The notes under the pieces were generated by a model. It saw only the letters and a list, made by a program, of their open reading frames with translations. It was not told the DNA's origin and ran no database searches. A stretch of 64,000 bases of DNA from Nannobrachium achirus (Eukaryota > Chordata > Actinopteri > Myctophiformes > Myctophidae), in NCBI GenBank assembly GCA_963921795.1, contig OY997653.1, positions 184,501-248,500 of the forward strand. The letters run 5' to 3'. The stretch's first letter is position 1; each line of letters starts with the position of its first letter. Both the position numbers and the translations under genes were made by a program. Of the stretch, positions 39,201-45,200 are shown piece after piece.

Positions 39201-42200
39201 GTCACAGGCTAAAAAGGTTTGAGAACCCCTGGTATAGAGCATTAACAAATTCATCCACCAGGGGCATTGACAACTCATTCTTATGACTTCCTATCTAGCC
39301 GAGCTTTATAAACTATAGATTTTTTAAAGAGGGAAAAAAAAAGCGAATATTTAACTTCAGTGAACAACGTCGAATAGTGACTTTAATATTCGAATATTCG
39401 AATATCTGGTGAATGCCCTAACACGGGAATGCTTTGCGAGTCTTCCAAAGCATTCCAGTTGGAAAATCCCTGCTTTATCGGGTCGTCACAACTCCAATAT
39501 GTGTCACCCATGTGTCTACAGATGCAAGGACCACCAGGATGAGCGCACAGACCTACCTGGGGACCCCCGACAGGAAGCATCCTCTTCTAGGTCAGTGCTT
39601 TGTAGTCTCAGAATAATAAGACTGTCTGAAGGCAACATAATCACAATTGTTAGGATGTTTTCATTTTTTTATATATATATATTTTTTTTCTGCATATTGT
39701 GTTTTATTTGTCTGTCATTCAATGTTATATGAGTTAAAAAAGGACCCCGATTGAAACAAGCCCAACATCTTTTTGAGAAATCCTTTTACTTGAAACTGTG
39801 CAGTTTTCCTTTGCAAACTTCTTATAGTCTTCCTTCCTTCAATCAATCAATGAATCAATACTTAACTGTTAGCTGATCCACAGCAGTAGATTGGTTTAAC
39901 CTTATCTAATGATGATATGAGACACTTCAGCCCAATAATCATGATAATGCAAACCCTCCGGTGTTATATTTCTTAACCCATTTAGGCCTGGAATTGTTAT
40001 ACTTTAGCAAGTCGTGATAATGTGTGCAAATCTTTGAATATATGTATTTTTAAAGAAAACATTTGTAACTCAAATTTTGCTTCTGGGGGGGTCCCTGGAA
40101 CTAAATATTTTGAGATGGGGTCCGCGGCCAAATACTTAATTTGGGGGGTATTTGACTTGAAAAAGGTTTGAGAAACACTGACATAAACATGCTGTGAGCT
40201 TGTATATCTGCTCTTTTTCAATAGATAAAGCATTACATAATGGTTAAAGTAATAATGCGTTCCCTTTCTTATTACTCTGTTGTACCTTTTCCTCCCTGCA
40301 GGCCTGGAGCACCTGGTGGAATGCAGCTGTGAGGATCAGACTGACAGACGATTCTATCTCTGCACCGTCTGTAAACTGACTCTGAGCCACGATAAGATCA
40401 TCAAACATCTGCTCAGCTTCCACCACCTCCATCGCTACATTGTAAGTAGGGATGGGACGATACGCGATATTATCGTATATTGTGATAAAAAACACTCACG
40501 ATAATCGTATCGTGGAGATTTAATTTATCGGGATATCGTCCTCCGTCATGCACTGGGATCAATTCACCTTTTATTTGCCGAGCAGCATCTGATACCACTT
40601 AAACCCTCTATAACTGGTAAAAGGTACTTAATATAATATACATACTTGATACAGTCTTTTTTTTTTCACTCTATCAAATGTCTTTGCCAAAAAATAGCCA
40701 ATCTACAAGCTCACAACGCGTCGCACTGCGGCGCGTTGTGAGCTTGTAGATCGTCTTTTTTTGGCAAAATGTTCGGCCCCAGGATAATGGATTTGGATTA
40801 TCGCGATAATATCGTAAATCGCGATTTATTTTGACACAATAATCGTGATATGACATTTTCATATCGTCCCATCACTAAATGTAAGTTCACTAATATGTGC
40901 TTTTATCACCTCCATCACTACATTGTAAGTTCACTATGTGCTTCTATCACCTCCATCACTACATTGTAAGTTCACTATGCTTATATCACCTCCATCACTA
41001 CATTGTAAGTTCACTATGCTTATATCACCTCCATCACTACATTGTAAGTTCACTATGGTCTGTTCTATCACCTCCATCGCTACATTGTAAGTTCACTAAT
41101 AATCACCTCCACCACTACATTGTAAGTTCACTACACTCTGTTCTATCACCTCCACTGCGACATTGTAAGTTAAGTTCACTATGCTTATATCACCTCCATC
41201 GCTACATTGTAAGTTCACTATGCTTATATCACCTCCATCGCTACATTGTAAGTTCACTATGCTTATATCACCTCCATCGCTACATTGTAAGTTCACTATG
41301 CTTATATCACCTCCATCGCTACATTGTAAGTTCACTATGCTTATATCACCTCCATCACTACATTGTAAGTTCACTATGCTTATATCACCTCCATCACTAC
41401 ATTGTAAGTTCACTATGCTTATATCACCTCCATCACTACATTGTAAGTTCACTATGCTTATATCACCTCCATCGCTACATTGTAAGTTCACTATGGTCTG
41501 TTCTATCACCTCCATCGCTACATTGTAAGTTCACTATGGTCTGTTCTATCACCTCCATCGCTACATTGTAAGTTCACTATGCTTATATCACCTCCATCGC
41601 TACATTGTAAGTTCACTATGCTTATATCACCTCCATCGCTACATTGTAAGTTCACTATGCTTATATCACCTCCATCGCTACATTGTAAGTTCACTATGCT
41701 TATATCACCTCCATCGCTACATTGTAAGTTCACTATGCTTATATCACCTCCATCGCTACATTGTAAGTTCACTATGCTTATATCACCTCCATCGCTACAT
41801 TGTAAGTTCACTATGCTTATATCACCTCCATCGCTACATTGTAAGTTCACTATGCTTATATCACCTCCATCGCTACATTGTAAGTTCACTATGCTTATAT
41901 CACCTCCATCACTACATTGTAAGTTCACTATGCTTATATCACCTCCATCACTACATTGTAAGTTCACTATGGTCTGTTCTATCACCTCCATCGCTACATT
42001 GTAAGTTCACTATGCTTATATCACCTCCATCGCTACATTGTAAGTTCACTATGCTTATATCACCTCCATCGCTACATTGTAAGTTCACTATGCTTATATC
42101 ACCTCCATCGCTACATTGTAAGTTCACTATGCTTATATCACCTCCATCGCTACATTGTAAGTTCACTATGCTTATATCACCTCCATCACTACATTGTAAG

Positions 42201-45200
42201 TTCCCTATGCTTATATCACCTCCATCGCTACATTGTAAGTTCACTATGCTTATATCACCTCCATCGCTACATTGTAAGTTCACTATGCTTATATCACCTC
42301 CATCGCTACATTGTAAGTTCACTATGCTTATATCACCTCCATCACTACATTGTAAGTTCACTATGCTTATATCACCTCCATCGCTACATTGTAAGTTCAC
42401 TATGCTTATATCACCTCCATCGCTACATTGTAACTTCACTATGTGCACTTGGTGCACATAGGCAGGTTGCAAGGCAGGTTGGTGCCTTGCATGGTTTCCA
42501 CTGTGACTGGTGTATGAATGTGTGTGTGAATGGGTGAATGTAATGCACAATCTGTGAGTGCCTTGGATAAAGGCGCTATGTAAATGCACCATTGACTACA
42601 CTGACCTCTGTGCTGTGTGTTTCCAGAACACATGGCATCCCTCCACTCTGCAGCACTACAGTTCATACGACTACAGCCAGCCGTTTAACTGCATGATGCA
42701 GGATTTGGCAAAACAGATGGAACAAATACATGGAACCACCATCGCTGATATGAAGGTAATGAGTACAGTACATTATCATTTATCATTAAATCCATTTAGA
42801 ACAGGTACACATTATTGTGTATCATTATTTTATGCTTTAACTATTGAAAAATAGCAGATTTACAAGCTCACAGCGCGGCACCGAGTGCCGCGCTGCGAGC
42901 TTGTAGATCTGCTGTTTTTGAAAAATTGTTTGATTCTATAAGTGTCTTCTATGTCAGCAATCTGGCTAGCCATCGTCAAAGAAAAGGTCCTTTTCACTTA
43001 AATGGAGCTCAGTTAGTCTGTTCTTGAGAGACTACTATGTCAGTGGTTCTCAAACCTTTTCATGTGAAGGCCCCCCAAAATGATATTTATTTGGCCACGG
43101 ACCCCCATCTCAAAATATTTCGTTCCAGGGACCACCCAGAAGCAAAATTTTAGTTACAAACATTTGCTTTAAAAATACATATATTCAAAGATTTGCACAC
43201 ATTTTCAAAACTTTTTCAAACATAGCTGATATACAAGCTCGCAGCGCGGCACCGATAGTTAAAGCATTCAATAATTCTAGGCCTAAATGGGTTAAATCCA
43301 TGGAACGACCTTCACTAACATGAAGGTAATGAAGTACACTCTAGAAGTAAACGATCATTACCGGTATATCCATGGAACCACCATCGCTGATATAAAGGTG
43401 TCGTAGATTAGAGTTTTGATTGATTATGTGTGACGTTATAGAGTAGATCAGGTCTTTATGATGATACTAATACCTGATAGTTAGGAGTAGAGAGGCCTTC
43501 AGTGGGCCTCAGTAACTATTGTTTTGGTAAAGCCAAAAGGTACAGCTCGTTCCAGAGGCATTGAAGCCACACAGCATAACTCTAGTGTCGGACCATTCTT
43601 CTTGGCAGAACTACCTTACCACTGCCCAGAGTGTTAATTGTACTTCTGTCCATGATATCATGTTATATAAACTTGACCACACCACCGCCTAATATAATTC
43701 TCCGTTGGTCAGCTTTCTGATTGGTCCCTGAGACTCCCTGACTGGCCAACCAGAAAACAACATTCACTTTTTGCTATCGGGGGTGGAGTTTGTGCAGTGG
43801 AGAATGTTGCTTCAGGCTTTCAACAACTGTCCGCTCTGCGCGACACGGCGTTCGTCCAGTACGGACGCGGGAGGTGATAGCGATCTCGCTCATCATAATG
43901 AATAAGCTTCAACAAACTAGTTCACATGGACCTTATCAATGTAACTAAGAGTCAGGATTGGGTACATATATTTTAAATGGGCAGAATTACGAAAAGCCAG
44001 CATATTATGTGAGGAGAACTATAATCTGGCTGTCCTCTTCCTACCCAAGATGCAATGCGCTTTCTCTTTCTATTTCTATTCTCTCTCTGATCCAGAGGAT
44101 TAAACTAATTAAAACATATATTTTCGGGGGAAAACTACTGTTTTGCTATGTAATTACTGTACCTGTTTCTTCCCTTTTTATTAATATCACGTAGATGTGT
44201 TTTTTTTGGTACTTTATATAGCTGTAATGAGGCTATGAAAAAATAAAAAAATCCCATTCACTGCCACTATAAAAACAATCTGCCCAGGGTCAAATGTCCC
44301 ACCATAGTAACAGGGCAGAATGGGGCGGGATTTGCAAAAGCCTGAATTGTCTTGTCTCCTCTGTTTCTCATGATTATTGATTGATCTGAATTCCACCACA
44401 AAGGTAATGATTACAGTGCACTCTGGAAGTACAGTAAATTATCATTTATCATTAAATTCACGCAACGACCATCACTGATATGAAGGTAATGAAGTCACAA
44501 AACCATTATGCCTTAGGCCCATAAAATTACCAAAGTCTGGAATATGTTTTTTGATTGATTGAGCGCAGTATTTATTAGTAGTTTGCATAGGAAACAGTTT
44601 CACGACAGCACTGGTGCAAGGCCAATTAAAAGGATAAGCTCAGGAAAGCACATGGCTTGTTTACATTGAGATATTTTAGTTTTTACTCTAATTAACATTG
44701 AATGACAGACTCATAACACAGTTCTATGCTGAAGAAAAACATGATGCATTTAAATCAGTAAATAATTTGGCCTAAGTCAGGTTTAATCCTATTTAATCCT
44801 CTTATGTTACATAACATAACTATCATTTTTAAGTCAATTGTCATAATTTCGATGGCCAAAACGCAAAAGCTCCTTTCTGCAAATGTCATGATTTTTGGAT
44901 TTCACTTGAAATGAGGACAACAGGCTATGCTGCACATGGTCAGTCTGTCTGCAAGATCCTTCTGCCCCTCATTTTGCCAAAAATTTCATGTGACTAGAAC
45001 ATGACATTATTTTTGACAGGTTTGGAAAAGAGGCAAAATGATGAAGCTCAAAACCTCCTATCTGCATTGCCTTATTGATTGCTAATGATTGGTGTCAGGT
45101 CACTCAGGTGGTGAAACTTTTGATAAAAAAAAATGTAATGGTAATACTTGTAACTGACCTGTAGAATGTCTGGATAAAAAGTGCTATTTAACAAAGAAAT

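Follow-up and report, generated by a model that had tools for sequence, protein, structure and literature searches.

How did dozens of near-identical splice donors come to lie behind a single coding exon, and what would they do to the splicing of that exon? The question is raised by a minisatellite in a duplicated, subtelomeric gene of Nannobrachium achirus, found in a stretch of 64,000 nucleotides (C16:184501-248500 of the 1.66-Gb genome; hereafter the window) that lies less than 250 kb from the end of a 64-Mb contig. The array follows an exon that we call exon 11, in keeping with the numbering of a preliminary description of this DNA. The locus is probably a minisatellite that spanned the exon-intron junction and was later split from its exon by a miniature inverted-repeat transposable element (MITE), which, with the expected course of splicing included, is the best explanation of the whole. 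The features concerned are as follows.

40302-40441, + strand: exon 11, with a phase-0 end ...HLHRYI, its last 24 bases forming the exon half of the repeat unit (joined frame, paralogs P1-P10, C10 duplicate)
40439-40446, + strand: left target-site copy ATTGTAAG, across the exon/intron border
40442-40447, + strand: exon 11's own donor GTAAGT, the final T of which is the first base of the MITE
40447-40877, + strand: hAT-like MITE of 431 bp, inside the exon's own donor unit and holding the first in-frame stop at 40502
40878-40885, + strand: right target-site copy AATGTAAG, 7/8 identical to the left copy
40881-42443, + strand: donor minisatellite with 39 complete units, of which 30 measure 39 bp, as well as a remnant with GTAACT (Tandem Repeats Finder (TRF), donor cutting)

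The array was reported by TRF at 40898-42443 with a period of 39, 39.1 copies and 94% matches, and cutting at TGTAA[GC]T gave 41 places: the donor of exon 11 itself (40442), another 39 with GTAAGT, and finally a GTAACT at 42430. Among the 39 complete units between 40881 and 42430, 30 measure 39 bp and the other nine 35, 41, 43 or 44 bp, so that the 39-bp period given in the preliminary description holds for most units but fails for these nine, with which the reading frame is lost. Each unit is a copy of the end of exon 11 together with a GTAAGT donor. Units are identical to the last 18 exon bases plus GTAAG, and the identity between exon and array is exact over 23-24 nucleotides (blastn E 4.7e-8 within the window), indicating that the match is not a matter of chance and bearing out the proposed origin of the unit from the 3' end of the exon and its donor. 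The dense field of identical donors after the exon is likewise real, as 40 of the 41 keep GTAAGT. Minisatellites are common in the window (68 TRF rows), which might favour chance similarity, a dispersed satellite or an assembly artefact, but the exact match runs across the exon-intron border, and a search of the genome DNA placed the array at two places only (best candidates scored), both adjoining this exon and differing from each other in unit number and in flanking insertions. These explanations are thus very improbable, and an array elsewhere without a related exon, named in the preliminary description as a sign of coincidence, did not appear among the best candidates of that search.

The array does not, however, begin at the exon's donor as had been described, since an overlooked element of 431 bp intervenes (40447-40877), bounded by the terminal inverted repeats TAG[G/T]GATGGGACGATA. 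MITEs of the hAT type are characterised by terminal inverted repeats, an 8-bp target duplication and many copies. This element has such repeats, an 8-bp target duplication (ATTGTAAG and AATGTAAG, identical at 7/8 positions and the same in the window and in a duplicate locus on C10) and many copies with the same ends. The genome search yielded 40 scored copies, from 5,518 first-look candidates, that are >88% identical and cover nearly all of positions 1-431. Target-site identity was 8/8 in six of ten sampled copies, one of them inside a CA repeat, and 7/8 in one. Removal of the element and one target copy by script gives ...CATCGCTACATTGTAAGTTCACTAATATGTGC..., which equals an array unit. A donor-spanning variable number tandem repeat is thereby restored, with the empty site reading ...CTACATTGTAAGTTCACTAATATG, itself a unit that the MITE interrupts today. 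As the empty site is an array unit, the first unit was the end of the exon itself, and the MITE inserted into this unit, which points to the order array first and MITE second.

In the duplicate locus (C10:120-122 kb) exon and MITE are the same, but the array comprises 14 complete units; array length is therefore evolving. A unit order abbcdefg is common to both loci, preceded by five extra units on C10 and followed by about thirty on C16, and broken donors occur in 3 of the 14 complete C10 units (GTATAAGT twice, GAAAGT once) versus 0/39 on C16. Over the seven exons common to both loci, one of 634 bases differs, compared with 93 of 10,195 aligned bases in introns outside the array (Poisson P 0.02 for so few exon differences at the intron rate), and both copies thus look constrained. 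More distant relatives were drawn from a protein search, which found paralogs on C10 (1.25-6.5 Mb) and C2, and ten loci were fetched (P1-P10). Exon 11 ends at the same place in all ten, eight reading YI/GTAA and two YM/GTCAGT (slashes here and below mark borders). The array is present in both recent duplicates and has no copy in any of the eight testable paralogs, in agreement with the suggestion that it might be lineage-specific; P8 and P9, in which no exon was mapped at the cut-off, stood outside the junction test described below and were viewed by eye only, across the 220 bp that follow the exon. P8 (C10:1367000-1376999) also contains long tandem arrays (30/60 bp) close to a further member of the family.

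With regard to splicing, calculated U1 pairing, which ignores pseudouridine and protein factors, is -7.0 kcal/mol for the exon 11 donor (attGTAAGTAG), -5.4 kcal/mol for 39 of the 40 others and -1.3 kcal/mol for the last. On these figures, no array copy pairs with U1 as well as the donor of the exon itself. The exon 11 donors of paralogs range from -1.4 to -5.4 kcal/mol (eight computed), and the comparison with both array and paralogs suggests that the MITE by accident supplied better downstream bases. All array donors lie 439 nucleotides or more downstream of the exon's donor, and exon definition would be expected to favour the near and stronger site. A decoy effect of the array on U1 or donor choice, as raised in the preliminary description, is possible. 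More far-reaching is the idea that the array is an active splicing regulator, the donors of which recruit U1, compete with the exon's donor and lower or shift productive splicing according to copy number. Retention of GTAAGT in 40/41 donors would fit this, as would the estimate that, among the GT sites of the window, about 11% match or exceed an array donor in pairing, and in human ABCA7 longer arrays are reported to be associated with increased skipping of the following exon, exon 19, and with lower expression (PMC5954066). We nevertheless consider it unlikely, as the broken donors on C10 indicate that donors are not kept there, the homogeneity of donors on C16 is explained by recent unit gain, and the exons are intact in both copies despite unlike array lengths.

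A second functional proposal was that the array gave, or still gives, in-frame repeats of a finger end, for example repeated VSSLCLYHLHRYI, and hence fingers of variable length. One 39-bp unit is indeed open in the exon's frame and 30/39 units have this length, but the first stop past exon 11 in that frame lies at 40502, inside the MITE. Even in the element-free sequence (MITE and one target copy removed) a stop follows 45 nucleotides beyond the exon, since the array opens with units of 44 and 41 bp, and donors 4-41 all lie behind a stop. As they stand, the units thus neither are nor were in-frame coding repeats. Coding extension through them was rejected on account of these two stops, and we give length-variable fingers next to no credence.

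Several points weigh against a junction-spanning minisatellite later split by a MITE. The target duplication in the window is imperfect (7/8), and three of the ten sampled MITE copies showed, as cut, target-site identities of 6/8, 5/8 and 1/8, the third of which appears by eye to be misplaced by one base. The order of events depends on the empty site being a unit, to which insertion of the MITE first, followed by copying, offers a less simple alternative. The advantage of the exon's donor over the array (-1.6 kcal/mol) is small for energies that leave out pseudouridine and protein factors, donor choice is a prediction from sequence, and the test for constraint hangs on a single exon difference.

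The break points themselves suggest how such an array could have been founded. A founder of 41 bp results from joining 24 bases of the exon (TTCCACCACCTCCATCGCTACATT) to 17 of the intron (GTAAGTTCACTATGTGC); when rotated to the unit at 40925 (also 41 bp), the founder is identical to it at 38/41 positions without gaps. The sequence is ...CTATGTGC/ACTTGG in the intron beyond the array and ...CAGC/TTCCACC in the exon, so that GC is common to both break points. We posit that the minisatellite was founded in the lineage of this gene when about 41 bp straddling the border of exon 11 and intron 11 were duplicated in tandem, likely through slippage or end-joining at the shared GC, with this microhomology as the probable cause. 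The array would then have grown through gain and loss of units, reaching the 39 units counted on C16 and the 14 in the C10 duplicate, before the hAT-like MITE inserted within the exon's own copy at GTAAG/T, where the 8 bp spanning the border appear in duplicate. The insertion would have kept the exon donor as GTAAGTAG, a better predicted match to U1 than the array's GTAAGTTC, and shifted the array 439 nucleotides downstream. Exon definition would now pick the exon's own donor, such that the array leaves with the intron, and transcripts occasionally spliced at an array donor would keep an in-frame stop and be subject to nonsense-mediated decay. The array may thus act as a weak decoy, the strength of which could depend on its length, as measured for human ABCA7.

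The gene in which these events took place was modelled by comparing the frames of the window with the paralog loci and reading the splice borders. The nine exons proposed, which span 30222-48144, can be joined to give a single open frame of 282 amino acids, and this frame together with conservation in paralogs supports exon 11 and its end as first described.

30222-30355, 33601-33726, 35886-35943, 38208-38261, 39522-39590, + strand: first five exons of the gene model (joined frame)
40302-40441, 42627-42755, 46718-46775, 48064-48144, + strand: remaining exons of the gene model (joined frame)
38208-38261, + strand: exon 38208 (conserved at the DNA level in paralogs, fits the joined frame)
42627-42755, + strand: exon 12 (paralog comparison, joined frame)

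The accompanying claim of a zinc finger ending in HLHRYI was not confirmed, as Pfam returned no family at E up to 1 for either the peptide of exons 11-12 or the joined frame of 282 aa, and the best sequence match in PDB was a ZFAT finger at E 0.21. The term "zinc finger" is thus an interpretation of the C-x2-C...H...H pattern, unsupported by profiles. Telomere-like interstitial GGTTAG repeats lie within an intron of the gene (30811-30901).

Exon 11 is not the only exon of this gene with a repeated border. For every junction of the nine exons, of which exon 38208 was first noticed through its repeats, we counted additional copies lying no more than 5 kb away. Tandem copies were found for 3/18 junctions on C16, 2/14 on C10 and 0/107 in the eight paralogs with mapped exons. 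The three C16 junctions are the exon 11 donor, the exon 12 donor (at 42755) and the acceptor at 38207; the latter two involve the following features.

38111-38221, + strand: tripled acceptor of exon 38208, with AG ends at 38127, 38171 and 38207 (TRF, junction test)
43294-44492, + strand: decayed and interrupted copies of the end of exon 12 and its donor in the next intron (self-comparison; two pass the junction test)
43294-43332, 43371-43399, 44401-44417, 44428-44457, 44468-44492, + strand: the exon 12 donor pieces

The exon 12 copies that pass the test are those at 43294 and 44468. Paralogs have a single acceptor at the counterpart of exon 38208; use of the middle copy of the acceptor in the window would add 36 nucleotides in frame without a stop, and use of the first copy would shift the frame.

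The clustering of repeated junctions raises the idea that splice junctions are preferred founders of minisatellites throughout the genome, for instance because duplications there are hidden by splicing or because DNA is fragile at transcribed donors, and that the present array is one of many. The excess over paralogs (3/18 vs 0/107; Fisher P 0.0026) is in its favour, but the gene itself was picked for its array, and with the array junction of exon 11 omitted the contrast weakens to 2/17 vs 0/107 (P about 0.018). Independent of this gene, an ankyrin-repeat exon at C9:1121100-1121800 (Ank_4 E 7.5e-15) ends GGACGTCTGGAG/GTAAGTTAG in a donor array of its own, the exon end and donor recurring at 38- and 53-bp spacing with pattern matches on to 1122267. 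Triplets of the word CAGGTGAGT spaced at 15-45 nucleotides number 338, versus 130 for the reversed word. Against this stand 327 triplets of AGGTAAGT versus 1,843 for its reversed word TGAATGGA, which resembles tetranucleotide repeats and is a poor control, though in any case it points against enrichment. In addition, three of four AGGTAAGT places fetched had no recognised exon, and the places counted are overlapping triplets and not loci. We hold a genome-wide preference to be conceivable but unlikely. A related reading, in which junctions in this genome are recurrent birthplaces of minisatellites because splicing hides the duplications, with tens of donor or acceptor arrays the decoy load of which is later relieved, for instance by a MITE that preserved and strengthened the true donor while displacing the decoys beyond the range of exon definition, is in our estimation unlikely.

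Further tandem arrays of CAGGTGAGT, as pattern matches only, occur at C1:8381188, C2:73909822-73911054, C3:68881353 and C4:2823170, and the units of the first three resemble exon ends. Elsewhere in the window, a 55-bp array at 23405-23716 (5.7 copies, GGCAG/GTGAGC in each unit) was considered as exon-linked and rejected, as its matches in P4 and P6 are intronic and support no exon. One 31-bp minisatellite unit is found in two arrays, at 2557-2900 and 11129-11979, between which lie long open frames (7187-8419 and 8580-10271) that read like a long interspersed nuclear element.

The closest known system to the exon 11 array is the human ABCA7 gene, where the exon concerned is an Alzheimer-risk exon. 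Its intron-18 repeat is described as a 25-bp array of about 12 to 427 units that includes the exon 18 donor, each unit beginning with GT, and use of the next donor, which retains one unit, is out of frame and leads to a premature stop (PMC5954066). In both cases the array stands at the start of the intron, takes in the donor of the exon and carries a donor sequence in each unit. The array in N. achirus is most likely a junction-spanning minisatellite of the ABCA7 intron-18 type that is largely spliced out. Unlike in the ABCA7 account, the unit here holds 18-24 exon bases, a MITE parts exon from array, the gene is a subtelomeric duplicate and two more of its junctions are repeated. Minisatellite-type repeats at exon-intron boundaries have also been reported in human segmental-duplication genes, with units averaging 30 bp x4 and with effects on transcripts that mostly concern exon or intron length (PMC2812944). 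The present case is similar in that copy number differs between recent paralogs, but it comprises about 40 donor units without an acceptor. Population variation and splicing effects were measured in ABCA7; at this locus the length difference is that between the duplicate loci, with 39 versus 14 units.

Splice sites are likewise multiplied by tandem duplication in the arrays of dual-specific AG/GT sites reported for UBC and VCX3A (PMC10809524) and in intron gain by tandem duplication (PMC4974935). In these cases the unit provides both donor and acceptor; within the 39-bp unit here AG occurs only inside GTAAG, leaving no acceptor, and a pair of units therefore cannot make a new intron. Some transposon insertions, such as introners, carry or copy splice sites. 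The target duplication of the present MITE similarly copies a splice site, but unlike an introner the element inserted into a donor that was already there and left it intact, creating no new intron. Intronic repeats of another kind are the subject of PMC12783039. In the titles and abstract openings of the literature surveyed, no fish or MITE-linked donor array of this kind is described. Junction-spanning donor arrays (ABCA7) and border repeats in human segmental duplicates are, as far as those accounts go, already on record; what this locus adds are exon bases within the unit, a MITE that parts the exon's donor from the copies, repetition at three junctions of a single gene and the series of paralogs.

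How the spliceosome selects a donor when dozens of near-identical sites are present is an open and testable question, for which this genome holds a natural series consisting of paralogs with no array, a locus with 14 units and a locus with 39, the latter two sharing the same exon and MITE. If junction-spanning arrays were common, they would constitute a source of splicing variation that is missed by standard annotation and short reads.

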